A DNA stretch of 64,000 nt from Phytohabitans maris (GTDB lineage Bacteria; Actinomycetota; Actinomycetes; Mycobacteriales; Micromonosporaceae): positions 186,001-250,000 of the forward strand of contig NZ_JAVHUY010000003.1 in assembly GCF_031085175.1 (NCBI RefSeq). The letters run 5' to 3'. The position numbers and the translations under genes were made by a program. Positions within the stretch are counted from its first letter, which is position 1, and each line of letters begins with the position of its first letter. The notes beneath the pieces are model-generated. The model saw nothing but the letters and a program-made list of their open reading frames with translations. It was not told where the DNA came from and did not search any database. This document shows positions 10,394-49,378 of the stretch, one piece after another.

Positions 10394-10407
10394 ATCAAGC
10401 GCTTGTT
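10394..10407. promoter_or_regulatory. KstR2-like operator (transporter operon side)
   Basis: ATCAAGCGCTTGTT matches AnCAAGnnCTTGnT at all ten fixed positions. It lies 69 bp upstream of the OppB-like gene on the minus strand and 100 bp from a second perfect copy beside the divergent TetR gene. This suggests that the two operons are controlled separately from the same intergenic region. Confidence 0.85.
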
Positions 10408-10506
10408 AGATTGTGGCGAGCCCTTGTCCGAAGGGCCGACGGCCGGCTGTCCGGTCCGTCGACATGCCGGGCCGAGTCGCTCTCGCCGCAACGCGTGCGA
10501 CGCTAT

Positions 10507-10520
10507 ACCAAGCGCTTGCT
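10507..10520. promoter_or_regulatory. KstR2-like operator (TetR side)
   Basis: ACCAAGCGCTTGCT is a perfect match to AnCAAGnnCTTGnT and ends 42 bp before the ATG of the KstR2-like regulator at 10,563. The position fits autoregulation of that gene. The rest of the 238-bp intergenic region shows no other clear feature. Confidence 0.85.
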
Positions 10521-10562
10521 TTATAGTGACTGGGCGACCTGCTTCCGATTGGGTGGTACTCC

Positions 10563-11183
10563 ATGCCAGATCCGACCGACCGCCGCCAGTTCATCCTCGA
10601 CACGGCCGCGGAGCTCTTCGCCGGCAAGGGGATCGCCGCGACCACGGTGCGGGAGATCGCGGAGCGGGTCGGGATGCTCTCCGGCAGCCTGTACCACCAC
10701 TTCGCCTCGAAGGACGCGATCGTCAACGAGATCGTCTCCAGCTACCTCACCGACCTGCAGGCCGGCTACCGGGAGGCGGTGGCGACCCACCCCGGGCCGC
10801 GGGAGCGGATCGCGGCGCTGGTGCGGGTCTCGCTGGAGGTGGCGCAGACCCACCCGCACGCGACCGAGATCTACCAGAACGAGTTCAAGAACCTGCGCAA
10901 GCTGCCCGGCTTCGAGGACTTCAAGGCGGCCGCCGCCGAGATCCAGCACACCTGGCTGGAGACGCTCGACGACGGCGTACGCCGGGGCGCGCTGCGGGCG
11001 GACATCCCGACCCGGGTCTTCTACCGCGTCATGCGCGACTCGCTGTGGCTGTCGGTGCGCTGGTTCCGCAGCGGCCCGGACTACGACACCGAGCGCCTCG
11101 CGGACACCTTCGTCACCATCTTCCTCGACGGGTACGCCGGCGCCGGCGACCGCTCCCTGACCGGGTCAGCGGCCGTCGGCTGA
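10563..11183 (+). CDS. TetR-family repressor, KstR2-like (paralogue 1)
   Basis: This 206-residue protein has a TetR N-terminal helix-turn-helix at about residues 28-47, with the recognition-helix sequence LSGSLYHHF that is also found in KstR2. The C-terminal ligand domain shares HPHATEIYQNEF and YRVMRDSLWLSVRWFR with the second regulator at 48,726. KstR2 is known to release DNA on binding a steroid ring C/D acyl-CoA (HIP-CoA), so an acyl-CoA ligand is likely here. A perfect operator lies just upstream, and the end overlaps the convergent thioesterase gene by 18 nt. GGGTGG precedes the ATG. Confidence 0.88.
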   Translation: MPDPTDRRQFILDTAAELFAGKGIAATTVREIAERVGMLSGSLYHHFASKDAIVNEIVSSYLTDLQAGYREAVATHPGPRERIAALVRVSLEVAQTHPHATEIYQNEFKNLRKLPGFEDFKAAAAEIQHTWLETLDDGVRRGALRADIPTRVFYRVMRDSLWLSVRWFRSGPDYDTERLADTFVTIFLDGYAGAGDRSLTGSAAVG

Positions 11184-12023
11184 CGGCGGGATGCGCAGCA
11201 TCCCCTCCTGCGCGACGAGCGCCACGAGCCGGCCGTCCTCGGCGAAGACGCGGGCGACGCCGAGCCCTCGGCCACCGCCGGCCGACGGCGACTCCTGGTC
11301 GCAGAGGAGCCAGCCGTCCGCGCGCAGCGGGCGCAGGTACCACAGGACGTGGTCCAGCGAGGCGGACTCCAGCGCCGGGTCCTCGAAGCCGGCCCGGTGC
11401 GGCCGCAGGGCGGCGCCGAGCACGGTGAAGTCGGTCAGGTAGGCCAGCATCGCCTGGTGCAGCAGCGGGTCGTCGGGGAGCTTCGGGTCCACCCGCCACC
11501 ACCAGCGCGCCGGCATCGGGGCGCCGGCCGCCGAGCGCAGCCCGTCGTCGACGTACCGCAGGTCCAGTCCGGCGAAGCGGCGCCGGTACAGCTCCGGGTC
11601 GCGCGGGCTCATCCGGGCCATCAGCGGATGGCCGGACGGGCATCGGCTCGGGTCGCCGGCGTCCGGCATCGGGTCCTGGTGCTCCGGCCACTCCTCGGGC
11701 ACCTGCGCGGAGACCGTGGCGGAAAAGAGCGTCCGCCCGCGCTGGCGGCCGGTCACCTGGGCGGCGGCGAACGCCCGGCCGTCCTTGACCACCTCGACCG
11801 CGTACTCCACCGGCAGCGCCGAGTCGCCCGGGCGCAGGAAGCGCGCGTGGACGCTGTGCACGACCTTGCCGCCGGTGAGGCTGCGCCCGGCCGCCACCAC
11901 CGCCTGCGCCGCCACGAGCCCGCCGAAGAGGCGCAGGCTCGGCGTGTCCTGCGGGGTACCGCGGAACAGGCCCGGCCCGCACGGCTCCGGCTCGATCAGG
12001 TCGGCGACGGTGCCGGGGTTCAT
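11166..12023 (-). CDS. Acyl-CoA thioesterase II-like (TesB family)
   Basis: This 285-residue protein is a double-hotdog acyl-CoA thioesterase. The first hotdog begins near LFGGLVAAQAVVAAGRSL and contains VHSVHARFLRPGD; the second carries SLDHVLWYLRPLRADGWLL, which includes the conserved acidic active-site region. It would hydrolyse an acyl-CoA to the free acid and CoA, either to recycle CoA or to export a dead-end product. ATG 12023 overlaps the stop of the Rieske gene (ATGA). The gene is last in a three-gene operon (thiolase, Rieske oxygenase, thioesterase). Confidence 0.9.
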   Translation of the reverse strand: MNPGTVADLIEPEPCGPGLFRGTPQDTPSLRLFGGLVAAQAVVAAGRSLTGGKVVHSVHARFLRPGDSALPVEYAVEVVKDGRAFAAAQVTGRQRGRTLFSATVSAQVPEEWPEHQDPMPDAGDPSRCPSGHPLMARMSPRDPELYRRRFAGLDLRYVDDGLRSAAGAPMPARWWWRVDPKLPDDPLLHQAMLAYLTDFTVLGAALRPHRAGFEDPALESASLDHVLWYLRPLRADGWLLCDQESPSAGGGRGLGVARVFAEDGRLVALVAQEGMLRIPPSADGR

Positions 12024-13129
12024 CCCGTCGCGCCGGTGGTCCGGTCCACCGGCTGCGGCTCGTCCTCCGGGTACGCGTCCTCGGGCGCCTCGGTGCCGGC
12101 GTCCTGGAGGCTCAGCAGCCGGTTGGTGTCCTCGTCCGGGTAGAACCGGGTCGCCCAGCGGCGCAGCGTCCGGAAGCCCTTGGCCTCCGCGGTCGCCAGG
12201 CCGGGCGGCTCGGAGTACCGCTGGTGCTCCCAGATCGCCACGTCGGCCAGGAACTGGTTGTTGGCGATGCTGAGCCGACGGTAGAGCTTCTCCGGCAGCT
12301 CCGGGCTGTCGTCGCCGGGCAGCCGCTGGAACCACGACGTGGAGCGGATGTCGGAGGTGTCCTCGTCGACCGGGGTCACCGAGACCAGCGAGCGCATGTT
12401 GTCGGCGCCCCAGGCGCGGGAGAGGCCGAGGCTGATGCCGACGTTCATCGCCTCGGCGCCGCCCTTGATCTCCGTGCCGGCGCCCTTGACCGCGGAGCCG
12501 CGGCTCGGCCGGAACGTCATGTCGAACGCGACGTGGAAGACCCAGTCGTCGAACTCCTGCTTCGTGAAGCGCGGCATCTCGGCCGCCCGGTGCACGAACT
12601 TGAAGTGCGCGAAGTCCACGCCGTTCTCGATGACGTACTGCGGGTGCAGCTCCAGCCGCTCGCGGATCAGCGTGCCGACCGGGTACCCCGGGTAGAAGTC
12701 GCCGGCGGTCAGCCCGTCGCCGAAGCCGGTGAAGACGTCCGGTACCTCGAAGAGCGGCTCGCGCCCGGCCACGTCGTGCCAGACGAAGGCGCACTCGTTG
12801 CGCTCGGCGACCGGCCAGGTGCGGATCCGCCGGGCCTTGTTGGGCCGATCCTGGTACGGGATGCAGGCGTTGCGCCCCTCCCCGTTCCACTCCCAGCCGT
12901 GGAACGGGCAGACCAGGTGCTCGCCGCTGACCGTGCCGCCGTACCCGAGGTGCGCCCCGAGGTGCTCGCAGTACGCGTCGAACACGTGCAGCCGCCCGCT
13001 CCGCGTGCGGAACGCGACGAGGTCCTGGCCGAAGTACCGCAACGGCTTGACCTCGCCCACGCCGATCTCCTTGGACCAGGCGATCTGGAACCACCCGGTC
13101 GGCTTCATCGACAGCGCGATCTTGGCCAC
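12020..13129 (-). CDS. Rieske non-heme iron oxygenase, KshA-like
   Basis: This 369-residue oxygenase has the Rieske [2Fe-2S] ligands Cys54-x-His56 and Cys74-x2-His77 (CEH and CPFHGW) and the mononuclear iron site ENGVDFAHFKFVH with His175 and His180. Overall form and length resemble 3-ketosteroid 9-alpha-hydroxylase oxygenase (KshA) and related steroid Rieske oxygenases. It needs a reductase such as KshB, which is not in the window. The GTG start at 13129 is preceded by GGAGGAGAC. A steroid-ring hydroxylation role is inferred from family resemblance and the KstR2-like box upstream of the operon; the exact carbon is unknown. Confidence 0.85.
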   Translation of the reverse strand: MAKIALSMKPTGWFQIAWSKEIGVGEVKPLRYFGQDLVAFRTRSGRLHVFDAYCEHLGAHLGYGGTVSGEHLVCPFHGWEWNGEGRNACIPYQDRPNKARRIRTWPVAERNECAFVWHDVAGREPLFEVPDVFTGFGDGLTAGDFYPGYPVGTLIRERLELHPQYVIENGVDFAHFKFVHRAAEMPRFTKQEFDDWVFHVAFDMTFRPSRGSAVKGAGTEIKGGAEAMNVGISLGLSRAWGADNMRSLVSVTPVDEDTSDIRSTSWFQRLPGDDSPELPEKLYRRLSIANNQFLADVAIWEHQRYSEPPGLATAEAKGFRTLRRWATRFYPDEDTNRLLSLQDAGTEAPEDAYPEDEPQPVDRTTGATG

Positions 13130-13173
13130 GTCTCCTCCGCTCCGCTTGATGCCGCTCGCTCGAGCCGCGCCGG

Positions 13174-14322
13174 TCAGGCCAGCCGCTCGATGATGGTCAC
13201 GTTCGCGAGGCCGCCGCCCTCGCACATGGTCTGCAGCCCGTACCGGCCGCCGGTCCGCTCCAGCTCGCCCAGGAGCGAGGTCATGATGCGGGCACCGGTC
13301 GCGCCGAGCGGGTGGCCGAGGGCGATGGCGCCGCCGTTGGGGTTGGTCTTCGCCGGGTCGGCGCCGATCTCGGCCAGCCACGCCATCGGTACGCTCGCGA
13401 ACGCCTCGTTGATCTCGAACACGTCGATGTCGTCGACGGTGAGGCCGGTCCGGTCCAGCGCCCGGCGGGTGGCGGAGATCGGTGCGGTCAGCATGTAGAC
13501 CGGGTCGTCGCCGCGCACGGTCAGGTGGTGGATCCGCGCCCGGGGCCGCAGGCCGTGCCGTTCGACGGCGGTTTCCGAGGCGACCAGCAGGGCGGCCGCG
13601 CCGTCGGAGATCTGGCTGGCCAGCCCGGCGGTGATCCGGCCGCCGGGGAGCACGGGCTGGAGCGCGGCGAGCCGCTCGGCGCTGGTGTCCGCGCGCGGCC
13701 CCTCGTCGGCGCTCACCCCCTCGATCGGCAGGATCTGCGCCGCGAACCGGCCGCCGTCCCGCGCGGCCACCGCGCGCCGGTGGCTCTCCAGCGCGTACTG
13801 CTCCATCGCGTCGCGGGTCAGCCCCCACTTCTCCGCGACGAGCTCGGCGCTGCGCAGCTGGGAGACCTCGGTGCCGGCGTACCGGGCGGCGAAGCCGCGC
13901 GAGCCCTCGAACGGGGACGGCCAGCCGTACTCGGGGACCATGGCGGAGCCGATCGGCACCATGCTCATGTTCTCCACGCCGCCCGCCACGACCAGGTCCA
14001 TCGTGCCGCTGAGCACCGCCTGGGCGGCGAAGTGCACCGCCTGCTGCGACGAGCCGCACTGCCGGTCGATCGAGACGGCGGGTACCTCCTCGGGCAGGCC
14101 GGCGGCGAGCCAGGCGGTACGGGCCACGTTGGCGGTCTGCGGGCCGGCCATGTCGACGCAGCCGAAGACGACGTCGTCCACCAGCCGCGCGTCGAGGCCG
14201 ACCCGGTCGACCAGCCCGCGCAGCACGTGGGCGCCGAGGTCCGCCGGGTGTACGCCGCGCAGGCCGCCCCGCTTGCGGCCGACCGGGGTGCGGATCGCGT
14301 CGACGATGTACGCCTCGGGCAT
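13174..14322 (-). CDS. 3-ketoacyl-CoA thiolase, FadA6-like (copy 1)
   Basis: This 382-residue thiolase has nucleophile Cys89 in DRQCGSS, the FEINEAF motif, the GGAIALGHPLGATGAR His motif and the C-terminal MCEGGG cysteine. It closely resembles the copy at 35,617, including the shared PRARIHHL and EVPAVSIDRQCGSS segments, and both look like mycobacterial FadA6 of the KstR2 regulon. It would cleave a 3-ketoacyl-CoA with CoA. ATG 14322 was chosen over an upstream ATG at 14364 because family members start at this point. A near-perfect KstR2-like box lies 41 bp upstream. Confidence 0.9.
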   Translation of the reverse strand: MPEAYIVDAIRTPVGRKRGGLRGVHPADLGAHVLRGLVDRVGLDARLVDDVVFGCVDMAGPQTANVARTAWLAAGLPEEVPAVSIDRQCGSSQQAVHFAAQAVLSGTMDLVVAGGVENMSMVPIGSAMVPEYGWPSPFEGSRGFAARYAGTEVSQLRSAELVAEKWGLTRDAMEQYALESHRRAVAARDGGRFAAQILPIEGVSADEGPRADTSAERLAALQPVLPGGRITAGLASQISDGAAALLVASETAVERHGLRPRARIHHLTVRGDDPVYMLTAPISATRRALDRTGLTVDDIDVFEINEAFASVPMAWLAEIGADPAKTNPNGGAIALGHPLGATGARIMTSLLGELERTGGRYGLQTMCEGGGLANVTIIERLA

Positions 14323-14363: not shown

Positions 14364-14377
14364 AGCAAGCGCTAGGT
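14364..14377. promoter_or_regulatory. KstR2-like operator (one mismatch)
   Basis: AGCAAGCGCTAGGT fits AnCAAGnnCTTGnT except for A in place of the second T of CTTG. It sits 41 bp upstream of the thiolase ATG and overlaps the TAG stop codon of the upstream VOC gene, so the end of one operon carries the operator of the next. Confidence 0.7.
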
Positions 14378-14911
14378 AGACAGATGGCCGGGTGGGTCCA
14401 GCACGGCCTCGATGCCCGCGCCGCAGAGGCCGCGCAGCGGGGCTCCCCAGAGCGCGGTGTCGACCAGCTCGACCCGGAGCCCGGAGGGCATCAGCAGGTA
14501 GCCGGTACGGGCCGCGGCGATCCGCTCGTCGAGGGTGCGCGGGGCGGCGTCCGGCGCGGGCAGCGTCTCGATCGCCGCCCCGCCGGCGACCAGCTCCGCG
14601 ATGGCGGCCGGGACGTCCGGGCACCAGTACGCCACGTGGCTCAGCGCGGCGCCGCTCCGCAGCAGCCGCCACTGCGGTCCCCGGTGCGGGTCGTCGCCGG
14701 CGCCGACGAGCTCGATCGCGCCGCCGCCGGGGAGCCGGCCGAACGCCAGCGCGAGCCGCTGCCGCACCACCCGGCCGGCCGCGTGGTCGTACGTGACGAA
14801 GTCGCGGGGCGCGGTCACCGTCCACGGCCCGACGCCGAACCGCTCGTGCTCGGCCATCGCCGCCCGCAGGTCGGCCACCGCTCCCCCGACGTGCATGACC
14901 GCGAACCGCAC
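14372..14911 (-). CDS. Glyoxalase/VOC-superfamily protein
   Basis: This 179-residue protein has two VOC-type half-domains: an N-terminal MHVGGAVADLRAAMAEHERF pattern and a second one with LSHVAYWCPDVPAAIAELVAGG followed by YLLMPSGLRVELVD. Members catalyse isomerisation, epimerisation (for example of methylmalonyl-CoA), ring-opening dioxygenation or lyase reactions with a divalent metal. GTG 14911 is six bases after the upstream stop; an ATG five codons later is an alternative. It is the last gene of the operon that begins with the aldehyde dehydrogenase at 19,681. Substrate unknown. Confidence 0.8.
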   Translation of the reverse strand: MRFAVMHVGGAVADLRAAMAEHERFGVGPWTVTAPRDFVTYDHAAGRVVRQRLALAFGRLPGGGAIELVGAGDDPHRGPQWRLLRSGAALSHVAYWCPDVPAAIAELVAGGAAIETLPAPDAAPRTLDERIAAARTGYLLMPSGLRVELVDTALWGAPLRGLCGAGIEAVLDPPGHLST

Positions 14912-14917
14912 GGCGGT

Positions 14918-15340
14918 TCAGCCCAGCCGGACCACGGCCCGCGCCGCGGCGACCACCGGCGCGCCGTCGACGCTCGCCTCCAGGGCGACCGCCACCCGGT
15001 TGCCGTCGAGCTTCTCCTCCACCCGGCCGCGCACCACGATCCGGGCGCCGCCCTCGTCCGGCACGGCGACCGGGCGGGAGAAGCGCAGCCGGTACTCGGT
15101 GACCGCGCCCGGGTCGCCGGTCCAGTCGGTGACCAGCCGGGCGACCTGGGCCATGGTGAGCATCCCGTGGGCGATGACGTCGGGCAGGCCGGCCGCCTTC
15201 GCCGCGCGCTCGTTCCAGTGGATGACGTTGAAGTCGCCGGAGGCGCCCGCGTACCGGACCAGCGCCTCCCGGGTCAGCGGGTACGCGGTCTGCGGCAGCT
15301 CGGCCCCGACCGCCACGTCCGCGAAGGCCGGCGCGGTCAT
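14918..15340 (-). CDS. MaoC-like enoyl-CoA hydratase, catalytic half
   Basis: This 140-residue single-hotdog protein carries the (R)-specific enoyl-CoA hydratase motif GDFNVIHWNE with Asp36 and His41. It overlaps by four bases a gene for a second MaoC-like half that lacks this motif. In actinobacterial steroid catabolism such split pairs (as in ChsH1-ChsH2) form a heteromeric hydratase that adds water to bulky 2-enoyl-CoA substrates. The same arrangement occurs again at 44,213-45,036, so the island has two hydratases. Confidence 0.88.
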   Translation of the reverse strand: MTAPAFADVAVGAELPQTAYPLTREALVRYAGASGDFNVIHWNERAAKAAGLPDVIAHGMLTMAQVARLVTDWTGDPGAVTEYRLRFSRPVAVPDEGGARIVVRGRVEEKLDGNRVAVALEASVDGAPVVAAARAVVRLG

Positions 15341-15801
15341 GCCGGCACCTCGACGGCGGCGGTGCCGCGGCTCATCAGCACGTTGGTCGCGGTGCAGACC
15401 AGCTCCCCGCCGGCGGCCCGGATCTCGGTGACCGTGGTGAGCCGCTCGTGCGGCCCGGCGTCCCGGATGTCGGTGATCCGCGACGAGACGCTGAGCACGT
15501 CGCCGGCGCGGATCGGCCGGTGGTGGGTGAACTCCTGGGACCCGTGGACCACGCGCTCGTACCGCATGCCCAGCTCCGGGTCGAAGATCGGGTTCTCCCC
15601 GCTGCGGCCGGTGAGCACCACGGCGAACGTGGGCGGGGCGATGACGTCGGGGTACCCGAGCGCGCGGGCCGCCTCCCGGGACAGGTACGCCGGGTGCGGG
15701 TCGCCGATCGCCTCGGCGAACTCGCGGATCTTCTCCCGGCTCACCTCGTACGGCTCCGGGGCGGCGAACGTCCGTCCGACGAACGCGCGGTTGAGGGGCA
15801 T
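15337..15801 (-). CDS. MaoC-like N-terminal dehydratase-domain protein (partner half)
   Basis: This 154-residue protein is a MaoC N-terminal-type (FAS1-like) dehydratase domain, with IREFAEAIGDPHPAYLSREAA, an IAPPTFAVVLTG core and the late GDVLSVSSRITDI strand. It lacks the D-x4-H catalytic pair and most likely forms a complex with the overlapping downstream catalytic half. ATG 15801 is preceded by AGGAGACGCC, a good ribosome site, and follows the ligase gene by eight bases. The last four bases overlap the next gene (ATGA). Confidence 0.87.
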   Translation of the reverse strand: MPLNRAFVGRTFAAPEPYEVSREKIREFAEAIGDPHPAYLSREAARALGYPDVIAPPTFAVVLTGRSGENPIFDPELGMRYERVVHGSQEFTHHRPIRAGDVLSVSSRITDIRDAGPHERLTTVTEIRAAGGELVCTATNVLMSRGTAAVEVPA

Positions 15802-15809
15802 GGCGTCTC

Positions 15810-17342
15810 CTAGGCCAGCATCTCGCGGAGGAGATGCCTCATGATCTTTCCGGTGTCGGTGCGCGGCAGGGCGTCGGTGAACGCGAGGCGCTCGGGCACC
15901 TTCTGGATCGACAGCCCCTTGCCGAGCAGGAAGTCGCGCACGTCCGCGAGGGAGAGCGGGTACGCGTCCGGCGCGAGCACGGCGACCGCGCAGCACATCT
16001 CGCCCACCACCGGGTCGGGCATACCGACCACGGCGACGTCCACGATGGACGGATGCAGGCTCAGCAGCTCCTGTACCTCCTGGGAGCTGATGTTCTCGCC
16101 CTTGCGGATGATGATGTCCTTGAGCCGCCCGGTGATCCGCAGGTTGCCCTCGGCGTCCAGGCTGCCGAGGTCGCCGGTGTGGAAGAACCCGTCCCGGTCG
16201 AACGCGGTGTCCAGCGCCGGGTCCACGTACCCGAGCATCATCTGCGGGCCGCGGGCGCAGACCTCGCCGCTCTCGCCGGTGCCGGCGAGCGAGCCGTCGG
16301 CCCGGACGATCCGGATCTCGGTCGTGTCGTACGGCCGGCCCTCGGTCTCGGCGAGCACGCGGTCCGGGTCGCCGACGCTGGGTATGGTCAGCGGCCCGGT
16401 CTCGGTCGAGCCGTACCCGGAGATCACGCCGACCCCGCCGAACGCGGCCTTGAGCCGGTGGTGCAGGTCGAGGCTGCGGGTGGCGCCGCCGCCGGGGAAC
16501 GCCCGCACCCGCGGGAAGATCGGCACCGGCGAGGCGAGCTGCGCCTTGAGGTACGCCTCGTGGAACGGTGTCGTGGTGCCGGCGATGGTCACGCCCTCCC
16601 GGCTGAGCGCCGCGATGGCGTCGTCGTTGAAGCGCTCGGTGAGGATGTTGGCGCAGCCGGCGAGGAGGCTGATGACAAACCAGGTCATCCCGCCGATGTG
16701 GGCGAACGGCGAGACCATCGCCACCCGGTCGTCCGGCACGAGCTCCAGCCGCCCGATCAGGTTGCGCCCCATGGTGAGCACGCTGCCGTCGGTGTGCCGG
16801 GCGCCCTTCGGGTCGGAGGTCGAACCGGAGGAGTAGAGCACCCAGCGCACCGGGTAGCCGGCGAACGTCGCCGGCGGCGCGGGCGGCGGCGGCAGGGTGG
16901 CCGGGTCGGCGCGGGGCAGCCGGTCGGTCAGGACGAGCACGTCCATCCCCGGGTCGCGGGCGGCCAGGTCGCGCGCCATCGCCGCGTGGTCGTGGCCGCG
17001 CAGCACGTCGGGTACGACCAGCAGCCGGGTGCGCAGCTGGGCGACCATGAAGCCGACCTCGCGCTCCCGGCTGATCGGGACGATCGGGTTCTGCGGCGCG
17101 CCCAGCCGGGTCAGCGCCGCCATCAGGATCACCGACTCGATCCGGGTGGGCAGCTGCCAGGAGACGACCGTGCCCTCCCCCACGCCCCGGGCGGCGAGGG
17201 CGGCGGCGACCGCCTCGGCCTCGACGCGCAGCTCGCCGAAGGTGAGGCGGCGGCCGTGCTCGTCCACCGCGGTCAGCCCGTCCGGCGTCGCCTCCGCCCG
17301 GCGGCGCAGGACCTCCCAGACCGTCTCGTACCGTTCAGCCAT
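15810..17342 (-). CDS. Acyl-CoA synthetase (AMP-binding, FadD type)
   Basis: This 510-residue adenylate-forming ligase has the P-loop-like YSSGSTSDPKGARHT, the GYGSTETGPLT motif, the FHTGDLG segment, ITGRLKDIIIRKGENIS hinge and a C-terminal PRTDTGKIMRH with the catalytic lysine. It activates a carboxylic acid to its CoA thioester. The sequence differs from mycobacterial FadD3 and is closer to the cyclohexanecarboxylate/CaiC-like branch; it shares WQLPT, GARHTD and other stretches with the ligase at 25,695. ATG 17342. It lies between an SDR and the MaoC pair in the 19,681 operon. Confidence 0.9.
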   Translation of the reverse strand: MAERYETVWEVLRRRAEATPDGLTAVDEHGRRLTFGELRVEAEAVAAALAARGVGEGTVVSWQLPTRIESVILMAALTRLGAPQNPIVPISREREVGFMVAQLRTRLLVVPDVLRGHDHAAMARDLAARDPGMDVLVLTDRLPRADPATLPPPPAPPATFAGYPVRWVLYSSGSTSDPKGARHTDGSVLTMGRNLIGRLELVPDDRVAMVSPFAHIGGMTWFVISLLAGCANILTERFNDDAIAALSREGVTIAGTTTPFHEAYLKAQLASPVPIFPRVRAFPGGGATRSLDLHHRLKAAFGGVGVISGYGSTETGPLTIPSVGDPDRVLAETEGRPYDTTEIRIVRADGSLAGTGESGEVCARGPQMMLGYVDPALDTAFDRDGFFHTGDLGSLDAEGNLRITGRLKDIIIRKGENISSQEVQELLSLHPSIVDVAVVGMPDPVVGEMCCAVAVLAPDAYPLSLADVRDFLLGKGLSIQKVPERLAFTDALPRTDTGKIMRHLLREMLA

Positions 17343-17348
17343 GCGCCG

Positions 17349-18152: not shown

Positions 18153-18169
18153 TCTCGTTTCCCTCTCAA

Positions 18170-42338: not shown

Positions 42339-42339
42339 C

Positions 42340-43488
42340 TCAGCCTCCCCCGCGCGGTAGGCCGAGCACCCGTTCGGCGACGATCGTGCGCTGGATCTCG
42401 TTGGTACCGGCGTAGATCGGTCCGGAGAGCGAGAAGAGGAAGCCCCGGCTCCACGCCGCGTCGACCCGCGCCTCCGGTCCGAGGATCTCCAGCGCCGCCT
42501 CGTGGATGTCGACGTCCAGTTCGGACCAGAAGAGCTTGTTCATGCTGGAGCGGGCGCCCGCCGGCACGCCGGCGAGCAGCGCGTCGACGTCACGGAGGGT
42601 GTAGAGGTGGTACGCCCGGGCGCCCATCCAGGCCCGCACCGCCCGCTCGCGCAGCCGCGGTGCCAAGGAGCCGCGGGAGCGGGCCAGCGCGACGAGGCGG
42701 TCGGCGGCGGCGAGGAAGCGCCCCGGCGAGCGGAGCGTGAGCCCGCGCTCGGAGCCGGTGGTGGCCATCGCGACCCGCCATCCCTCCCCCACGCCGCCGA
42801 GCACGTCCGCGTCGGGTACGAAGACGTCGGAGAGGAAGACCTCGGCGAAGCCCTCGTCGCCGTCGAGCCGGCCGAACCCCCGTACGGTCACGCCGGGCGC
42901 GTCCAGCGGCACCAGGAAGTAGGTGAGGCCGCGGTGCCGGGCGGCGGCCGGGTCGGTGCGGAAGAGCCCGAAGAGGTGGGTGCAGAACGCCCCGCGGGTG
43001 GTCCACGTCTTCTGCCCGGACAGGCGCCAGCCGCCGGCCGCCTCGTCGCGTACCGCCGTGCTGCGGATGCCTGCGAGGTCGCTGCCCGCCTCCGGCTCCG
43101 ACCAGCCCTGGCACCACAGGTCCTCGGCCGCCGCCATCCGGGGCAGCAGCCGGTCGCGCTGCCCGTCCGTGCCGAACTCGAAGAGCGTCGGGGCGAGCAG
43201 GAAGATGCCGTTCTGGGTGACCCGCTGCGGCGCGCCGGCCGCGTGGTACTCCTCCTCGAAGATCAGCCACTCCCAGAGCGAGGCGTCCCGCCCGCCGTAC
43301 CGCTCGGGCCAGGAGACGGCCGACCAGCGCGCCTCGTGCAGCCGGCGCTCCCAATCGACGTGCCGGGCGAAGCCCTCGCGGGTGTCGCCGGAAGGGAGCG
43401 GCTGCGCCGGTACGTTCGCCCGGAGCCAGGCGCGGGCCTCGGCGCGAAACGCGGCCTCGCTCGCGGTGTCGGTCAGGTCGACGGTCAT
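42340..43488 (-). CDS. Acyl-CoA dehydrogenase, large-subunit type (pair C)
   Basis: This 382-residue ACAD has WCQGWSEPEAGSDLAGIRS, SGQKTWTTRGAFC and YAGTNEIQRTIVAERVLGLP. It is the likely FAD-binding large subunit paired with the small ACAD that follows. Start ATG 43488 overlaps the EchA20 stop (ATGA). Three such pairs in one island suggest three different chain or ring lengths handled in sequence. Confidence 0.9.
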   Translation of the reverse strand: MTVDLTDTASEAAFRAEARAWLRANVPAQPLPSGDTREGFARHVDWERRLHEARWSAVSWPERYGGRDASLWEWLIFEEEYHAAGAPQRVTQNGIFLLAPTLFEFGTDGQRDRLLPRMAAAEDLWCQGWSEPEAGSDLAGIRSTAVRDEAAGGWRLSGQKTWTTRGAFCTHLFGLFRTDPAAARHRGLTYFLVPLDAPGVTVRGFGRLDGDEGFAEVFLSDVFVPDADVLGGVGEGWRVAMATTGSERGLTLRSPGRFLAAADRLVALARSRGSLAPRLRERAVRAWMGARAYHLYTLRDVDALLAGVPAGARSSMNKLFWSELDVDIHEAALEILGPEARVDAAWSRGFLFSLSGPIYAGTNEIQRTIVAERVLGLPRGGG

Positions 43489-44216
43489 GTGCCGAACTCC
43501 CGCCGTACCTTGTCGGCCACGCCGGAGAGGTTGAGCTCGAAGGTGAACCCCTGCTCGTACCGGTAGCTGCGCTTGACGTCGACCGGGTCGATGCCGTTGA
43601 GCGACTGCTTCGCAGCCCGGATCACGGCCGGCTCCTTGGCAGCGATCTCCCGGGCCAGCTCCAGCGCGGCCTCCCGCAGCCCGTCCCGGGGTACCACCGC
43701 CAGCACCGAGCCGTACCCGTGCAGCTCGGCGGCGGTCGCGGTGCGGGAGGTGTACACCATGGCGCGCATCCGGTGCTGCGGCACCAGCCGGGCGAGGTGG
43801 GTGGCGGCGCCGAGCGCGCCCCGGTCCACCTCGGGCAGGCCGAACGTGGCGTCCTCGCTGGCCACCACGATGTCCGCGTTGCCGGCCAGGCCGATGCCGC
43901 CGCCGAGGCAGTGGCCGTGCACCGCCGCGATCACCGGTACCGGGCAGTCGTAGACGGCCGCGAACGCCGCCGCGCAGCCCCGGTTGACGGACACCATCGC
44001 GGCGAAGTCGGTGGCGCGGTTGAGCTCCTTGACGTCGACGCCGGCGTTGAAGCCGCGCCCCCGGGCCCGGAGCACGACCGCGCATACCTCCGGGTCGGCG
44101 CCGGCCGCGGTGAGCGCCTCGGCCAGCGCGAACCAGCCGGCCACCGGCAGGGCGTTCACCGGCGGGTTGTCCATGACGACCTCGGCGACGCCGGCCGATA
44201 CCGAAGAACTGATCAT
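43485..44216 (-). CDS. echA20: EchA20-type ring D hydrolase (crotonase family)
   Basis: This 243-residue crotonase matches EchA20 of mycobacteria along its length, with NPPVNALPVAGWFALAEAL, RGRGFNAGVDVKELNR, GHCLGGGIGLAGNADIVVAS and the QGFTFELNLSGVAD C-terminus. EchA20 is known to hydrolyse the D ring of a steroid-derived bicyclic CoA intermediate in the HIP pathway. In mycobacteria it neighbours ipdA and ipdB; here it is in the same operon, separated from them by ipdC, ipdF and a MaoC pair. ATG 44216 overlaps the MaoC stop. Confidence 0.9.
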   Translation of the reverse strand: MISSSVSAGVAEVVMDNPPVNALPVAGWFALAEALTAAGADPEVCAVVLRARGRGFNAGVDVKELNRATDFAAMVSVNRGCAAAFAAVYDCPVPVIAAVHGHCLGGGIGLAGNADIVVASEDATFGLPEVDRGALGAATHLARLVPQHRMRAMVYTSRTATAAELHGYGSVLAVVPRDGLREAALELAREIAAKEPAVIRAAKQSLNGIDPVDVKRSYRYEQGFTFELNLSGVADKVRREFGT

Positions 44217-44611
44217 GCGGTTGCTCCCTGGGTGACGAAGGTCGCCCACGCGCGGGCGGCGACCACCCCGGCCTGGGTGGTGCAGGTCAGCTCCAGGTCC
44301 ACCCGCGGCTCACCGTCCCGCGTGTACCGGCGGGCGACCTCGCCGGCGCAGGTGAGCGTGTCGCCGGGGAAGACCTTCGCGGCGAAGCGGACCCGGAACC
44401 GGCGTACCGCGGCGGCGCCGAGCCAGCCGGTGGCCCAGGTCGCCATCAGGCCGGCCTGGAGCATGCCGAGCGCCAGCGGTGCCGGCAGCCCGGCCGCCCG
44501 GGCGAACGGCTCGTCGTGGTGGATCGGGTTGAAGTCGCCGGACGCGCCCTGGTAGCGCACCAGGTCGGTACGGGTGAGCGGGCCGACGACGAGCGGGGCG
44601 GGCGGCGTCAC
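44213..44611 (-). CDS. MaoC-like enoyl-CoA hydratase, catalytic half (pair 2)
   Basis: This 132-residue hotdog protein carries GDFNPIHHDE with Asp26 and His31, the (R)-hydratase catalytic pair, followed by LALGMLQAGLMATWAT. It overlaps its partner half by four bases (GTGA at 44608-44611), like the pair at 14,918-15,801. It should hydrate a bulky enoyl-CoA in the HIP-like pathway. Confidence 0.88.
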   Translation of the reverse strand: MTPPAPLVVGPLTRTDLVRYQGASGDFNPIHHDEPFARAAGLPAPLALGMLQAGLMATWATGWLGAAAVRRFRVRFAAKVFPGDTLTCAGEVARRYTRDGEPRVDLELTCTTQAGVVAARAWATFVTQGATA

Positions 44612-45036
44612 GACGTCTCGACCCCGGTCTGTCGGGCCTCGGCGACCAGCCGCCCCGACGCGTCGCGAAACTCGGTGACCATGACGGCGAACGTCAGCGT
44701 GCCGCCGCCCCGGCTCGTCTTCGTGTAGATCTCGGTGACCGCCGACTGGGCGGTCAGCCGGTCGCCGGCGCGCGGCGGCGGGCCGTGGAAGACGTACTCC
44801 TGCTCGGCGTGCAGGCCGCGGGACTGGTCCATGGCGACCTTCTCCCACGGGTCGCTGTCGCCGTGCTGCCAGAAGAACGCCGTGGTCAGGAACGTCGGCG
44901 GGATCACCGGCTCCACATCGGACAGGTACGCCGGGTCGGTGGCGAAGACCGCGCGGGCGAACTCGCGTACCTTCCCGCGCTCGATCTCCATCTCGAACGG
45001 CGTGCCGGCGGCGCCGAGCGCCCCGGTGTCGACCAT
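44608..45036 (-). CDS. MaoC-like N-terminal dehydratase-domain protein (partner half, pair 2)
   Basis: This 142-residue protein resembles the MaoC N-terminal dehydratase domain, with VREFARAVFATDPAYL, IPPTFLTTAFFW and RAGDRLTAQSAVTEIYTK. It has no D-x4-H pair and probably supplies part of the binding pocket for the catalytic half. ATG 45036 has GGGGAGG five bases upstream; GTG 45039 directly before it is less well spaced. Confidence 0.87.
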   Translation of the reverse strand: MVDTGALGAAGTPFEMEIERGKVREFARAVFATDPAYLSDVEPVIPPTFLTTAFFWQHGDSDPWEKVAMDQSRGLHAEQEYVFHGPPPRAGDRLTAQSAVTEIYTKTSRGGGTLTFAVMVTEFRDASGRLVAEARQTGVETS

Positions 45037-45049
45037 CACGACCTCCCCG

Positions 45050-45808
45050 TCACGGATGCTGGCTGCTCACGGAGATGACCTCGCCGGCGAGGTACGAGGC
45101 GAGGTCGCTGGCGAGGAAGACGATGACGTTCGCCACCTCCTCCGGCTCGGCCGCCCGCCCGAACGCCTCGCGCCCGGCGAGCGTGGTGAGCAGCTCCTCC
45201 GTCGTCACCTTGGCCAGGTGCGGGTGCATCGCGATGCTCGGCGCGACCGCGTTGACCCGTACGCCCGCCTTGGCCGCCTCCAGCGCGGAGCAGCGGGTCA
45301 GCGCCATCACGCCGGCCTTCGCGGCGGCGTAGTGCGCCTGGCCCTCCTGCGCCCGCCAGCCGATCACCGACGCGTTGTTGACGATCACGCCGCCGCCCCG
45401 CGGGATCATGTGCCGCAGCGCCGCCCGGGTGCAGCGGAACGTGCCGGTCAGCGTCACGTCCAGCACCGTGTGCCACTGCTCGTCGGTCATCTCGACCACC
45501 TGCGCGGTGCCGCCGAGGCCGGCGTTGTTGACCAGCACGTCGAGGTGCCCGTACTCGTCGACGACCGTGTCGACCATCCGCTGAACCTGCTCCTCGACGG
45601 TCACGTCGCAGGGCACCGCGAGCGGCTCCTCGCCGGCGATCCCGGCGAGCGTCCGGGCCGCCTCGGCGAGCCGCCGCTCGTGCCGGTCGCTGATCGCCAC
45701 CCGGGCGCCCTCCTCGGCGCAGCGGCGGGCGGTGGCGAAGCCGATCCCGGTGCCGGCGGCCGCGGTCACCAGCACGGTCCGCCCGGCCAACAGTCCATGT
45801 CCGGTCAT
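45050..45808 (-). CDS. ipdF: IpdF-like SDR dehydrogenase
   Basis: This 252-residue SDR has the variant cofactor motif TAAAGTGIG (residues 15-23), then ATARRCAEEGARVAISDRHERRL, LVNNAGLGGTA and catalytic Y-A-A-A-K. This AGTGIGFATARR/ISDxHERRL pattern is what I recall for the IpdF dehydrogenase (Rv3559c type), which oxidises a ring hydroxyl of the HIP-CoA intermediate. Location next to ipdC and upstream of echA20 supports the call. ATG 45808 overlaps the end of a possible small ORF. Confidence 0.8.
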   Translation of the reverse strand: MTGHGLLAGRTVLVTAAAGTGIGFATARRCAEEGARVAISDRHERRLAEAARTLAGIAGEEPLAVPCDVTVEEQVQRMVDTVVDEYGHLDVLVNNAGLGGTAQVVEMTDEQWHTVLDVTLTGTFRCTRAALRHMIPRGGGVIVNNASVIGWRAQEGQAHYAAAKAGVMALTRCSALEAAKAGVRVNAVAPSIAMHPHLAKVTTEELLTTLAGREAFGRAAEPEEVANVIVFLASDLASYLAGEVISVSSQHP

Positions 45809-45882
45809 CGCGCCTCCCGCCGGGGTACCGCCACGCTCTTGTCGACCGGCAGCCGGGGGCGGTCGATCTCATACGCCGGCAT
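45805..45882 (-). CDS. Possible 25-residue small protein between ipdC and ipdF
   Basis: An ATG at 45882, inside the last codons of ipdC in another frame, opens a 25-residue frame (MPAYEIDRPRLPVDKS...) that ends with a TGA at 45805-45807 overlapping the ipdF ATG by two bases. All other neighbours in this operon are joined by overlaps, and a 60-base gap would otherwise break the chain. The peptide is rich in charged residues and prolines and has no domain I know. It may be a real small protein, a coupling leader or chance. Confidence 0.35.
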   Translation of the reverse strand: MPAYEIDRPRLPVDKSVAVPRREAR

Positions 45883-46960
45883 CGCCGCGCTCCTCGGACG
45901 CCGCCGGGGCGGGGCAGGCCAGCCGGGCCACCACGTCCCGGGCCTGCTCCATGATCCGCTCGACCAGCTCGGCGCAGCAGGGCAGGTCGTCGATGAGCCC
46001 GACCACCTGCCCGGTCGCCATCACGCTCAGGTCGGTGCGACCGTCCACCATGGCCGAACGCAGCAGCGCCGGCGTGTTGGCGGCGAGCAGCACCTGGCTG
46101 AGCCGCAGCTCGTGCGAGCGGCGCATCGACAGTCCCTCGCTGACCATGTCGCGCCAGCTCATGCCGGTGTGCCGGCGCAGCGCCGCCGCGCTCCGCACCG
46201 ACCGGGCCAGCCGGCGGGCGCGCCCGGCCCGGGCCAGCCGGTCGACGAACGGGGTGCGCAGCAGCCGTTGCGGCAGCCCGTCGAGCACGTCCGTCCAGAC
46301 CGTGTCGTACACGCTCGCGGCCAGGTACGCCCGCTTGACCGCCTCGGGCACCTCGCTGTCGCTGGTCAGCAGGAACCGGGTGCCCATGGCGATGCCGGAG
46401 GCGCCGTACGCGAGCGCGGCCACCAGCCCCCGCCCGTCGAAGTAGCCGCCGGCCGCGATCACCGGGATCTCCACCGCGTCGACGACCTGGGGCAGCAGCA
46501 GCGAGGTCGCCACGCCGCCGGTGTGCCCGCCGCCCTCGCCGCCCTGCACGACCACCGCGTCGGCGCCCCAGGCGGCCACCTTCTCGGCGTGCCGGCGGGC
46601 GCCGATCGAGGGTACGACCACGATGCCGGCGTCCTTGAGCCGGGCGATCAGCTCCGGCTTCGGCGCGAGGGCGAACGACGCGACCCGTACCCCCTCGCGG
46701 ATCAGCAGGTCGACCCGGTCGCGGGCGTCGGTGGCGTCGGCGCGCAGGTTGACCCCGAACGGCGCCGGGGTCCGCTCCTTGACCGCGCGGATGGCCGCCT
46801 CGAGCTCGGCGAGGCTCATCGTGGCGCTGCCGATGACGCCGAGGCCGCCGGCGGCGGAGGTCGCGGCGGTCAGGCGGGCGCCGGAGACGTACCCCATGCC
46901 GGTCTGGACGATCGGGTACCGGACGCCGAACAGGTCGCAGATGGCGGTGTGCAGCCTCAC
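45869..46960 (-). CDS. ipdC: IpdC, nitronate monooxygenase-like flavoprotein
   Basis: This 363-residue TIM-barrel flavoprotein belongs to the nitropropane dioxygenase-like family and matches mycobacterial IpdC: YPIVQTGMGYVSGARL, GVNLRADATDARDRV, VVVQGGEGGGHTGG, IAAGGYFDGRGLVAALAYGA and MGTRFLLTSDSEVP. IpdC acts on ring C of the HIP-CoA-derived intermediate before IpdAB opens it. GTG 46960 overlaps the ipdB stop (GTGA). High similarity and gene order make this one of the firmest calls in the window. Confidence 0.93.
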   Translation of the reverse strand: MRLHTAICDLFGVRYPIVQTGMGYVSGARLTAATSAAGGLGVIGSATMSLAELEAAIRAVKERTPAPFGVNLRADATDARDRVDLLIREGVRVASFALAPKPELIARLKDAGIVVVPSIGARRHAEKVAAWGADAVVVQGGEGGGHTGGVATSLLLPQVVDAVEIPVIAAGGYFDGRGLVAALAYGASGIAMGTRFLLTSDSEVPEAVKRAYLAASVYDTVWTDVLDGLPQRLLRTPFVDRLARAGRARRLARSVRSAAALRRHTGMSWRDMVSEGLSMRRSHELRLSQVLLAANTPALLRSAMVDGRTDLSVMATGQVVGLIDDLPCCAELVERIMEQARDVVARLACPAPAASEERGDAGV

Positions 46961-47715
46961 GGCGCGGGCACCTCCCGGGAGCGCAGGTCCTGCGGGTCGA
47001 TGACCGTGCGGATCAGCTCCAGCTCGCGGTCGGTCGGCAGCCGCGTCCGGGCCACCTCGCCGGCCATGACCAGGTCGAACCCCGTCGCCGCCACCACCTG
47101 CTCGACGGTAACGCCCGGGTGGACCGAGACCAGCCGCATCCGGTGATCCGGCGTGGCGAAGTCGAAGACGCCGAGGTCGCTGACCACCCGGCGGATCTCG
47201 TGGAAGCGGCTCGCGGAGGGGCCGGCGGCGGCCGCCCGGTCGTACCCGACGCCGGAGACCATGTCGACCCGCTCGACGAAGGAGCGGGGGCGGTGCCGGC
47301 TCACCCAGTAGCTGGTCGGGTGGTGGACGGTGTTGCCCGGCGCGCCGCGCACGCCGAGCAGCTGCGCGGTGGGGCGCTCGAACGGGCCGACGGCCGAGAT
47401 GTTCGCGTTGCCGTACCGGTCGACCTGGCTCGGTCCCATCATCACGTGCCGGCGGCCGGTGTAAATCAGGTCGAAGATCGTCCGGAACGGCAGCCAGCCC
47501 TCGATCACCGGTGGCTTGTCGCCGAGCGCCCAGGTCCCCTGTACCAGCAGCGCCTCGCCGTCGGAGAGGAGCAGGTCGGGCGCGAACGTGGCGCGGGCGA
47601 GGCGGGCGCCGATCGTCGGGATCACGCCGACCGGGCTGGCCAGGATCTCGCCGTCGCCGCGCCACACCTCGGCGCAGGCCACGACGCAGACCTCGGCCCG
47701 GGTGACGCCGCTCAT
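46957..47715 (-). CDS. ipdB: IpdB, steroid ring C hydrolase subunit beta (CoA-transferase fold)
   Basis: This 252-residue CoA-transferase-fold protein begins MSGVTRAEVCVVACAEVWR and has FAPDLLLSDGEALLV, GPSQVDRYGNANISAVG, GVRGAPGNTVHHPTSYWV and VSDLGVFDF, matching mycobacterial IpdB closely. IpdA and IpdB form a heteromeric hydrolase that opens the last steroid ring (ring C) of a CoA thioester, using the transferase fold for a retro-Claisen-type reaction. ATG 47715 overlaps the ipdA stop (ATGA). Confidence 0.95.
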   Translation of the reverse strand: MSGVTRAEVCVVACAEVWRGDGEILASPVGVIPTIGARLARATFAPDLLLSDGEALLVQGTWALGDKPPVIEGWLPFRTIFDLIYTGRRHVMMGPSQVDRYGNANISAVGPFERPTAQLLGVRGAPGNTVHHPTSYWVSRHRPRSFVERVDMVSGVGYDRAAAAGPSASRFHEIRRVVSDLGVFDFATPDHRMRLVSVHPGVTVEQVVAATGFDLVMAGEVARTRLPTDRELELIRTVIDPQDLRSREVPAP

Positions 47716-48560
47716 CCGGCCACCGCCCCGGCCCGGTACGCGGGCTCCTCCCCCGCCAGGTAGCGGGCGGTGAACTCGGCCCACGCGGCGGGGTCGGCGG
47801 CCGCCCGCACGTACTCGCGCTGGAACGCCTCGTCCCGCCCGTAGTCGGGGTCGCAGGCGGTGAAGTGCGCCCCGCCCGGCGCCTCGACCACGCCGCTGAC
47901 CATCCAGCGCTGGATCCGGAGCGTCTGCACCGGCGCGGTGACGGTCAGCTCCTCGGTCGGCACGATCCGCTCGCAGGAGACGTACGCCCGGTCGGCGGCC
48001 ATGCAGAACAGCTCGTCGAAGTACGGGTCCACGCCGAGCACCTGGCCGTTGCCGAGCGCGTCGGCCCGGTTGACGTGGACGAGCGCGGCGTCGAGGCGCA
48101 GCGCGGGCATGGCCACCAGCTCCTCTCCGTCCTCGTACGGCGAGCCGACCGTGCGCAGCTCCGGGTTGACCCGCATGACGTCCGAGCCGAGGCCGGCCCG
48201 GGTGGGCAGGAACGGCAGCCGGCACGCCGCGGCGTGGAGCCCGAGCTGGAGCATCCCCTCGTCGTACTCGCTGACGGCGAGGGTGCCGGCCTGGCGCGCG
48301 GCCCGGAAGTGCGGCTCCAGCGGGATGCTGTCCAGCGAGACGAAGCCGTACACCAGGCGGCGGATCTTGCCGGCGGCCAGCAGGAAGCCGGCGTCGGGGC
48401 CGCCGAAGGTGACCACGGTCAGGTCGGTCAGGTCGGAGCGGAGGATCGCCCGTACGAGCGACATCGGTTTGCGCCGCGAGCCCCAGCCCCCGATGCCGAT
48501 GGTCATCCCGGAGCGCAGCTCCGCGACGACCTCGCTCTCCGTCATGCGCTTGTCTGCCAT
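47712..48560 (-). CDS. ipdA: IpdA, steroid ring C hydrolase subunit alpha (CoA-transferase fold)
   Basis: This 282-residue protein has SGMTIGIGGWGSRRKPM, AILRSDLTDLTVVTFGGPD, FVSLDSIPLEP, PFLPTRAGLGSDV and VVEAPGGAHFTACDPDYGRD, which match mycobacterial IpdA. It partners with IpdB. It is the first gene of a 14-gene operon (15 counting the small ORF) running to 37,502 that contains ipdBCF, MaoC pair 2, echA20, ACAD pairs B and C, a crotonase and an SDR. ATG 48560 has GAGAGG upstream and lies 30 bp from a perfect KstR2-like box. Confidence 0.95.
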   Translation of the reverse strand: MADKRMTESEVVAELRSGMTIGIGGWGSRRKPMSLVRAILRSDLTDLTVVTFGGPDAGFLLAAGKIRRLVYGFVSLDSIPLEPHFRAARQAGTLAVSEYDEGMLQLGLHAAACRLPFLPTRAGLGSDVMRVNPELRTVGSPYEDGEELVAMPALRLDAALVHVNRADALGNGQVLGVDPYFDELFCMAADRAYVSCERIVPTEELTVTAPVQTLRIQRWMVSGVVEAPGGAHFTACDPDYGRDEAFQREYVRAAADPAAWAEFTARYLAGEEPAYRAGAVAG

Positions 48561-48590
48561 CGCCGCCTCTCGCCGGTAGGCCGCCAAGAT

Positions 48591-48604
48591 AGCAAGCGCT
48601 TGGT
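48591..48604. promoter_or_regulatory. KstR2-like operator (ipdA operon)
   Basis: AGCAAGCGCTTGGT matches AnCAAGnnCTTGnT perfectly, 30 bp upstream of ipdA. It is the only box between ipdA and the divergent KstR2-like gene at 48,726, whose start lies 121 bp away, and it may serve both. No second feature is evident in the remaining gap. Confidence 0.87.
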
Positions 48605-48725
48605 TGGTAGCGCCATACCCCGGGTCCGCGGGGCGCTTCGACACCGCCGGTACCGCACGCGGCGGCCCCGGGAAGTACACTCCAATGTCCCCATCGACCG
48701 GCCCCGAACTAGTAGGTGAGAACCG

Positions 48726-49319
48726 GTGGCGCGTGAGCCCGTGGACCGCCGCGAACGCATCCTGGCCAGCTCGGCCAAGCTGTTCGCCCGCAACGGCGTG
48801 GCGGCGACGACGGTCCGCCAGATCGCGGACGAGGTCGGCATCCTCTCCGGGAGCCTCTACCACCACTTCGACTCCAAAGAGGCGATCGTCGACGAGGTGG
48901 TCTCGTCGTTCCTCACCGACCTGCGCACCCGGTACGAGAAGGTCCTCGCCAGCGACCTGGACGCCCGCGCGCGGCTGCACGACCTCGTCGTCGCCTCCCT
49001 CGAAGCGGTCGAGGCGCACCCGCACGCCACCGAGATCTACCAGAACGACGTCAACTACCTGAGCCAGCTCGACCGCTTCGCGTACCTGCGCAAGGCCGGC
49101 CGGGACGTGCAGAACGCCTGGCTGCAGGTGATCCAGGCGGGCATCGACGCGGGCGCCTTCCGGTCCGACATCGATCCCAAGATCCTCTACCGCCTGATGC
49201 GCGACGCGCTCTGGATGTCGGTCCGGTGGTTCAAGCCCACCCGGGAGTACCCGCGCGCCCGGCTGGCCGAAGACTGCACGTCGATCTTCCTGGACGGCCT
49301 GACCCAGGCTCCCCGCTGA
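48726..49319 (+). CDS. kstR2: KstR2-like TetR repressor (paralogue 2, probable master regulator)
   Basis: This 197-residue TetR protein has a helix-turn-helix at about residues 29-48 with ILSGSLYHHFDSKEAIVDE, almost as in KstR2, and a ligand domain with HPHATEIYQNDV and YRLMRDALWMSVRWF. KstR2 controls the HIP genes by binding AnCAAGnnCTTGnT and is induced by HIP-CoA. Its place between the ipd operon and a thiolase parallels the kstR2-fadA6 neighbourhood in mycobacteria. GTG 48726 has AGGTGAG seven bases upstream. It is clearly related to, but not identical with, the regulator at 10,563. Confidence 0.9.
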   Translation: MAREPVDRRERILASSAKLFARNGVAATTVRQIADEVGILSGSLYHHFDSKEAIVDEVVSSFLTDLRTRYEKVLASDLDARARLHDLVVASLEAVEAHPHATEIYQNDVNYLSQLDRFAYLRKAGRDVQNAWLQVIQAGIDAGAFRSDIDPKILYRLMRDALWMSVRWFKPTREYPRARLAEDCTSIFLDGLTQAPR

Positions 49320-49364
49320 CCGTTCCCGGCTCTTGACCTTGCGGCGGCCCGCGACCTAGGGTGT

Positions 49365-49378
49365 AGCAAGCGCTTGGT
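49365..49378. promoter_or_regulatory. KstR2-like operator (thiolase gene)
   Basis: AGCAAGCGCTTGGT is a perfect match, ending 25 bp before the thiolase GTG at 49,404 and 45 bp after the stop of the KstR2-like gene. It is the last box of the island. Confidence 0.87.

Follow-up and report, generated by a model that had tools for sequence, protein, structure and literature searches.

We analysed a window of 64,000 nt from the actinomycete Phytohabitans maris, positions 186,001-250,000 of contig NZ_JAVHUY010000003.1, in which eleven 14-nt boxes of the KstR2 type span positions 10394-49378 (all coordinates count from the first base of the window). In cholesterol breakdown, KstR2 is known to control the lower half of the pathway (rings C and D), and KstR separately controls the upper half. 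Genes g1-g67 were called with our own gene caller, and their starts and operon limits are estimates. On these calls the island holds about 55 genes in 14 units, nine of them multi-gene and five single-gene. The original prediction of nine operons and two single genes was thus right for the operons and too low for the single genes.

A pattern search of the window with at most one mismatch recovered all eleven predicted 14-mers in their places, seven as exact matches and four with one mismatch, as had been proposed. The scores given here come from an independent matrix, built from 60 sites lying within 400 bp upstream of TetR genes in 80 named loci, the window excluded; these loci were found with a TetR alignment and are the best 80 of at least 511. 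Exact boxes at 10394-10407 (score 28.4) and 10507-10520 (30.0) precede, respectively, an ATP-binding cassette (ABC) transporter unit running down from 10324 and a TetR gene at 10563-11183; TATAGT starts at the second base after the latter box. The one-mismatch box at 14364-14377 (26.0) precedes a thiolase-Rieske-thioesterase unit. Two exact boxes share the next gap, one at 19739-19752 (25.9) preceding the unit that runs down from 19654 with its aldehyde dehydrogenase gene first, the other at 19855-19868 (26.6), 12 nt ahead of ATG 19881, which we picked among candidate starts of g22 in a unit for two short-chain dehydrogenases/reductases (SDRs), a phosphotransferase-like protein and an acyl-CoA (coenzyme A) dehydrogenase. 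One-mismatch boxes follow at 23802-23815 (25.1), 25 nt ahead of a cytochrome P450 start, and at 29513-29526 (20.4; mismatch at an outer position), between a luciferase-like and an SDR gene. The exact box at 34810-34823 (24.7) occupies the divergent gap between an amidohydrolase unit and an enoyl-CoA hydratase gene, and the one-mismatch box at 35588-35601 (19.9) lies 15 nt ahead of a FadA6-type thiolase gene. Two more exact boxes close the row, at 48591-48604 (27.5), in the divergent gap between an IpdA-type gene and a second TetR gene starting at 48741, and at 49365-49378 (29.0), preceding a thiolase gene at 49425 and a major facilitator superfamily (MFS) transporter gene. The AnCAAGnnCTTGnT boxes occupy promoter gaps, including those of both TetR genes (10507 and 48591).

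The search returned 13 matches in total, compared with a mean of 0.20 and a maximum of 2 in shuffled windows. The two additional one-mismatch sites, at 52855 and 63557, were dropped as chance matches because they lack the GCGC centre and score low on the independent matrix (3.4 and 8.2). Ten of the eleven boxes are wholly intergenic, and the box at 14364 overlaps the final 6 nt of the gene at 14372-14911, in keeping with the claim that all are intergenic or at an operon end. Intergenic sequence makes up 5.1% of the 10-50 kb stretch on our gene calls, giving a binomial tail of 1.3e-12. All five called divergent gaps of the island contain one or two boxes, and boxes lie 12, 15, 19 and 25 nt from the possible starts 19881, 35617, 34843 and 23841; both points had been predicted. 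Overall, box-to-start distances range from 12 to about 136 nt and are below 70 nt in 12 of 14 promoters. In 8 of the 14 promoters the box is followed within 25 nt on its 3' side by a TAnnnT hexamer, which occurs in 9.7% of the window's intergenic 25-mers.

The independent matrix sets the same sites apart. Its top eleven matches in the window are exactly the eleven boxes (19.9-30.0), and the twelfth scores 9.1; elsewhere in the genome, a non-random sample of 491,030 bases picked for other reasons reaches at best 13.3. The published motif leaves position 7 open; it is C in 90% of cases. Across the 9.87-Mb genome the motif has ten exact matches, of which seven are in the island (binomial 1.8e-15) and three within predicted genes, so that every intergenic exact match found in the genome belongs to one island. 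Likewise, the core 10-mer CAAGCGCTTG has 11 genomic copies, eight in the island and three within predicted genes. On the shuffles, the independent matrix and the intergenic placement we reject a chance origin of the eleven sites.

Homology relates both TetR proteins to KstR2. Among solved structures, the two that match each protein best are 2ibd, an unnamed regulator that we take to be a Rhodococcus protein, and 4w97, KstR2 of M. tuberculosis. TetR 1 (10563-11183, + strand) matches them at E 3.1e-42 and 2.4e-39, as a divergent KstR2 paralog, and TetR 2 (48741-49319, + strand) at E 7.3e-53 and 3.6e-44. No other protein of the genome is a strong KstR2 relative (next match, E 7e-20). The two are 51% identical to each other, with 35 of 51 residues identical in the DNA-binding part. 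The recognition-helix stretch LSGSLYHHF is the same in both; it also occurs in 107 of the 119 rows of our TetR set, a set that contains a KstR outgroup. Both proteins hold the residues of an RD..W.SVRW stretch, in which we assume the KstR2 effector residues Arg, Trp and Arg to lie. The consulted part of PMC11667970 does not spell these residues out. In a tree of 76 of the 119 rows (near-identical rows dropped; long branches call for caution), TetR 2 falls in a supported set of 16 rows from Dactylosporangium, other Micromonosporaceae and one Sphaerimonospora, placing it in a mainly Micromonosporaceae clade, and TetR 1 stands on a long branch without a supported place. A KstR2-relative protein at E 1e-30 was found in 63 of 300 Micromonosporaceae genomes. 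In Amycolatopsis taiwanensis (L123, about 5.2-16.7 kb), three KstR2-like TetR genes lie within about 11 kb with boxes between them.

The box recurs beside KstR2 relatives in other genomes. A box with at most one mismatch lies within 400 bp upstream of the TetR gene in 55 of the 80 named loci, compared with 0-6 for 19 permuted palindromes, and an exact box in 42, compared with none for the permuted palindromes. Counted over the full length of all 80, exact matches number 81 for the motif and 0-2 for the controls. These counts uphold the proposed KstR2-type identity of the motif. Among 269 box-gene pairs elsewhere (54 with an unlabelled gene), the commonest labels are regulator (64), FadA6-type thiolase (26), IpdA type (15) and FadD3 type (13). 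Because the loci were selected by their KstR2 genes, with several stretches taken from a single genome and many of the genomes closely related, the counts from other genomes are not independent. We also observed a boxed KstR2-like TetR gene adjoining Ltp-, ChsH2- and acyl-CoA dehydrogenase-like side-chain genes in Dactylosporangium fulvum (L070). In Arthrobacter sp. MYb227 (L084) and Glutamicibacter soli (L088), a KstR2-like TetR gene lies near a KshA relative (57-58%), a KstD-like gene and a FadD3-type gene.

Downstream of the boxes, the right arm of the island (g39-g54) carries the known ring C/D gene set of the HIP pathway, with 37-74% identity to Nocardia farcinica proteins. The Nocardia genes are our own calls on a record without annotation, and we presume their labels from gene order. 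A putative operon at 35617-37537 (+) encodes the FadA6-type thiolase (66% to Nocardia) and an Rv3549c-type SDR. The main ring C/D unit, at 37502-48560 (-), encodes FadE33-, FadE30-, Rv3548c-, Ech-, FadE32-, FadE31- and EchA20-type proteins, a MaoC pair and IpdF, IpdC, IpdB and IpdA types. At the right end, a unit at 49425-52078 (+) encodes a thiolase (PRK07851 model above cut-off) and the MFS transporter (50636-52078). Beyond it, at 52096-63969 on the - strand, is a dense row of 11 box-free genes, annotated as including an SDR and an alcohol dehydrogenase, for which we saw no link to the regulon.

The left arm opens with a putative operon at 889-10324 (-) encoding a Dpp/Opp-type ABC importer (two permeases, a family-5 binding protein and two ATPases), a luciferase-like oxidoreductase, SDRs and SnoaL-like proteins, with a 133-nt gap inside. 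On the same strand follow a unit at 11166-14322 for a thiolase (FadA6 paralog), a KshA-like Rieske oxygenase and an acyl-CoA thioesterase, and a unit at 14372-19654 for an aldehyde dehydrogenase, an SDR, an acyl-CoA ligase, two MaoC-type hydratase genes and a VOC protein. The + strand carries the unit at 19881-23764 (SDR, 52% to a Nocardia Rv3548c-type protein; phosphotransferase-like protein; acyl-CoA dehydrogenase; SDR) and the P450 unit at 23841-28111 (P450, ferredoxin, VOC protein, acyl-CoA ligase-SnoaL fusion and SnoaL protein). The acyl-CoA ligases of the island lie at 15810-17342 and 25695-27608. Single genes encode a luciferase-like monooxygenase (28552-29469, -), an SDR (29593-30381, +) and an enoyl-CoA hydratase/isomerase (34843-35580, +), and the unit at 30411-34769 (-) encodes an amidohydrolase-2 protein, an enoyl-CoA hydratase, an acyl-CoA dehydrogenase pair and a CMD-family protein. 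Left-arm proteins include relatives of Nocardia FadA6 (61%), the Rv3548c type (52%) and FadE30 (43%). The arm would act on a steroid-derived substrate.

The left-arm Rieske protein has Rieske and KshA_C domains and matches solved KshA at E 4.9e-32, but at 31% identity to Nocardia KshA it fails as an ortholog of characterised KshA. Its nearest relatives are other KshA-like proteins, at 59% on a Rhodococcus plasmid and at 50-57% in another family of the same order. We rejected both settings as relatives of the island: the plasmid region of Rhodococcus sp. DMU1 has a Rieske protein of 58-59% identity, yet its stretch (L162) lacks box and synteny (flanks L164 and L165 were compared as gene tables only), and the contexts in the other family show no synteny and no box near the Rieske gene. 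For that family, 15 stretches around 9 of the KshA-like proteins had no box near the Rieske gene and two one-mismatch sites about 12 kb off. The P450 matches 'CYP125MRCA', which we take to be an ancestral CYP125, best (E 1.5e-53), with other P450s from E 7.5e-48 on.

A KstR2-type regulon is, judged from sequence and homology, real and well supported at this locus, and the eleven sites are probably operators of KstR2-type TetR repressors that control one island. According to this model, both island-encoded paralogs would sit on boxes near the -10 regions of the 14 units and keep about 55 genes off; in a simple reading, repression would be a block of the -10 region. When the CoA thioester of a perhydroindane acid forms (HIP-CoA in the known system), the repressors would be released. 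Uptake by the Dpp-type ABC importer and the MFS protein, activation by the two ligases, oxygenation by the P450, Rieske and luciferase-like enzymes, beta-oxidation and ring C/D opening would then be switched on together. We retain part of the earlier proposal that one signal controls all: KstR2-type boxes are present in all five divergent gaps of the island, but a single signal does not follow, as there are two KstR2 paralogs of 51% identity. Since the two paralogs share the same recognition-helix stretch, one box code may serve two ligands.

Published work, on which we draw in excerpts, describes the KstR2 motif, electrophoretic mobility shift assays and a 15-gene regulon (PMC3068626), and HIP-CoA as the KstR2 effector (PMC5380842); further literature was consulted in the same partial form (PMC9782250, PMC4810484, PMC7593942). 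The island resembles the KstR2 regulon of Mycobacterium smegmatis, M. tuberculosis and Rhodococcus jostii RHA1 (PMC3068626, PMC5380842) in its box, its KstR2-type TetRs and its short box-start distances; in M. smegmatis the motif lies 22-82 nt from the starts of regulated genes (PMC3068626). Genes of the IpdABC, IpdF, EchA20, FadA6 and FadE30-33 types are common to both. In contrast to the 15 genes and three boxed regions of the mycobacterial and RHA1 regulon, the island has about 55 genes and 11 boxes, two KstR2 paralogs, an ABC importer and oxygenases, and neither FadD3 nor KstR was found in the draft genome. Size alone is not new, because a likewise large KstR2 regulon, with sites in 29 operons of which 10 are phytosterol-induced, was predicted in Nocardioides simplex VKM Ac-2033D (PMC7807495). 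According to the excerpts, that strain has both KstR and KstR2 and its genes lie in several clusters, whereas here the intergenic exact matches all fall in one island.

Searches for the upper pathway bear on what the island is for. The genome is a draft (GCF_031085175.1; 95 contigs, 97.3% completeness), and absences of KstR, HsaC and FadD3 are therefore provisional. The best KstR match in it is 32% over 105 aa (E 1.5e-8), below an ortholog, and no HsaC ortholog was found there either, the best match (43%) lying, by eye, in a ring-hydroxylating dioxygenase cluster. With the same HsaC query, 7 of 21 chosen genomes gave matches of 58-59%, and all six loci read were beside HsaA, HsaB and HsaD types; no match of that level was found in 11 of the 18 chosen genomes that carry a KstR2 relative. 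G067 and G114, each a single contig, have KstR2 and ring C/D genes and gave no HsaC match at E 1e-40. KstR-type sites (TnnAACnnGTTnnA) number 43 in the genome, compared with 26 for the control; the five on contig C37, which were those compared with gene calls, lie in or before genes judged non-steroid by eye, with no family search, and we did not accept these sites as proof that an upper pathway exists. The original prediction missed the lack of KstR, HsaC and FadD3 orthologs in the genome, which changes the meaning of the island. With neither a KstR nor an HsaC ortholog found in the draft genome, KstR2 may here fill alone the role that mycobacteria and Rhodococcus divide between two regulators. 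Our best reading, which we consider likely, is a KstR2-only regulon for uptake and degradation of perhydroindane-type steroid fragments.

Several observations weigh against the sites or against this reading. The draft genome yielded no FadD3, the HIP-CoA synthetase that produces the known inducer (best match 37%); the island's two ligases are 30% identical to FadD3, and FadD3 at 45-54% was found in nine other loci (L066, L068, L069, L084, L088, L108, L141, L187 and L202). The genome holds 204 matches with at most one mismatch compared with 161 for a reversed control pattern, and 11 copies of the core compared with 13 for its control. Since genome totals are hardly or not enriched, the eleven sites stand out by being packed into 39 kb and by lying between genes. 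One exact match elsewhere, in coding sequence, scores 21.8, within the range of the eleven, so score alone is no proof. When up to one mismatch is allowed, the motif matches 143 times in the 80 loci and the permuted palindromes 1-64 times (one control reached 64), and 25 of the 80 KstR2-like loci have no box of this quality within 400 bp. A P450 or Rieske relative comes first behind a box in none of the 269 pairs elsewhere (54 unlabelled), so the box membership of these two operons is drawn from this window only. Finally, TetR 1 and TetR 2 share 61 of 140 residues, ungapped, after the DNA-binding domain, and their ligands may differ.

The last of these objections leads to the strongest rival, two overlapping sub-regulons in which TetR 1 senses a left-arm intermediate and TetR 2 senses HIP-CoA, both acting at shared boxes, and either ligand by itself would induce only partially. 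TetR 1 lies at the left end by the ABC unit and TetR 2 at the right end by the IpdABC-type genes; the conservation of the DNA-binding part relative to the remainder, the tree position of TetR 2 as opposed to TetR 1, and the left-arm relatives of FadA6, Rv3548c type and FadE30 all fit such a division. By eye, however, no box subtype divides the two halves, and the presumed effector residues Arg, Trp and Arg occur in both proteins, which also counts against it; we rate this arrangement as a serious candidate with somewhat less than an even chance. It is unlikely that the regulon is of the ordinary cholesterol type, with its KstR half on sequence absent from the assembly. The 95 contigs, the completeness of 97.3% and a KstD-like protein (43% identity) on contig C7 would allow it, but no ortholog was found for any of KstR, HsaC and FadD3, HsaC orthologs of Micromonosporaceae reach 58-59% to the same query, and the single-contig genomes G067 and G114 combine KstR2 and ring C/D genes with no HsaC match at E 1e-40. 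That only the ring C/D half and its KstR2 function, the left-arm boxes being remnants of duplication or gene transfer beside genes for another substrate, is slightly less likely still: the P450 and Rieske genes lack boxed relatives among the pairs examined, and the Rieske protein is closest to KshA-like proteins of another family, with no box near the Rieske gene in the stretches around nine of them, but left-arm boxes score 20.4-30.0, most lie near start codons, and a boxed Dpp-type ABC unit also occurs in Enemella and three genomes of another genus.

Relatives of other left-arm genes (aldehyde dehydrogenase, SDR, phosphotransferase and luciferase-like) are boxed elsewhere too, at 29-47% identity that is partly superfamily likeness only. 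Dpp-type ABC genes account for 13 of the 269 pairs, all from Enemella and the genomes G038, G081 and G120. Enemella dayhoffiae has a similar ABC unit with an exact box 101 nt ahead of the binding-protein gene. G038, G081 and G120, all members of a single further genus, each have an island that combines Dpp-type ABC genes with a KstD-like gene and a KstR2 relative; the sequence retrieved continues into ring C/D genes for G038 and G120 and, as far as it reaches, does not for G081. At three loci (L066, L085 and L123), boxes precede another kind of importer, by eye with a branched-chain-type binding protein. R. jostii RHA1 imports cholate metabolites with an ABC system, CamABCD, and an MFS protein, CamM, of which perhydroindanes are assigned to CamM and ring-A-aromatised metabolites to CamABCD (PMC8399759). 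The island likewise has one ABC and one MFS system, a likeness by description, no Cam sequence having been compared, and the excerpts of PMC8399759 make no mention of KstR2 control of the Cam transporters. With CamM as the RHA1 perhydroindane transporter, precedent speaks no less for the MFS gene (50636-52078) than for the ABC importer. A thin literature search turned up no paper on a KstR2-controlled peptide-type (Dpp/oligopeptide) importer, and such control may be new.

Tentatively, and with more doubt than confidence, we propose a scavenger role. Some Micromonosporaceae without the 9,10-seco pathway would import perhydroindane-type fragments left by other bacteria through the KstR2-controlled Dpp-type ABC and MFS systems. 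A ligase standing in for FadD3 would activate the fragments, the P450/Rieske arm would trim them, and rings C and D would be mineralised, with the two paralogs tuning entry and ring opening. In the KstR2-only regulon that we favour, the lower half of the pathway would come with its own importers and oxygenases, in a genome where no recognisable upper half was found. If this is true, the HIP pathway can serve as a diet on its own, and the question of which molecule feeds it becomes one that growth tests answer directly.

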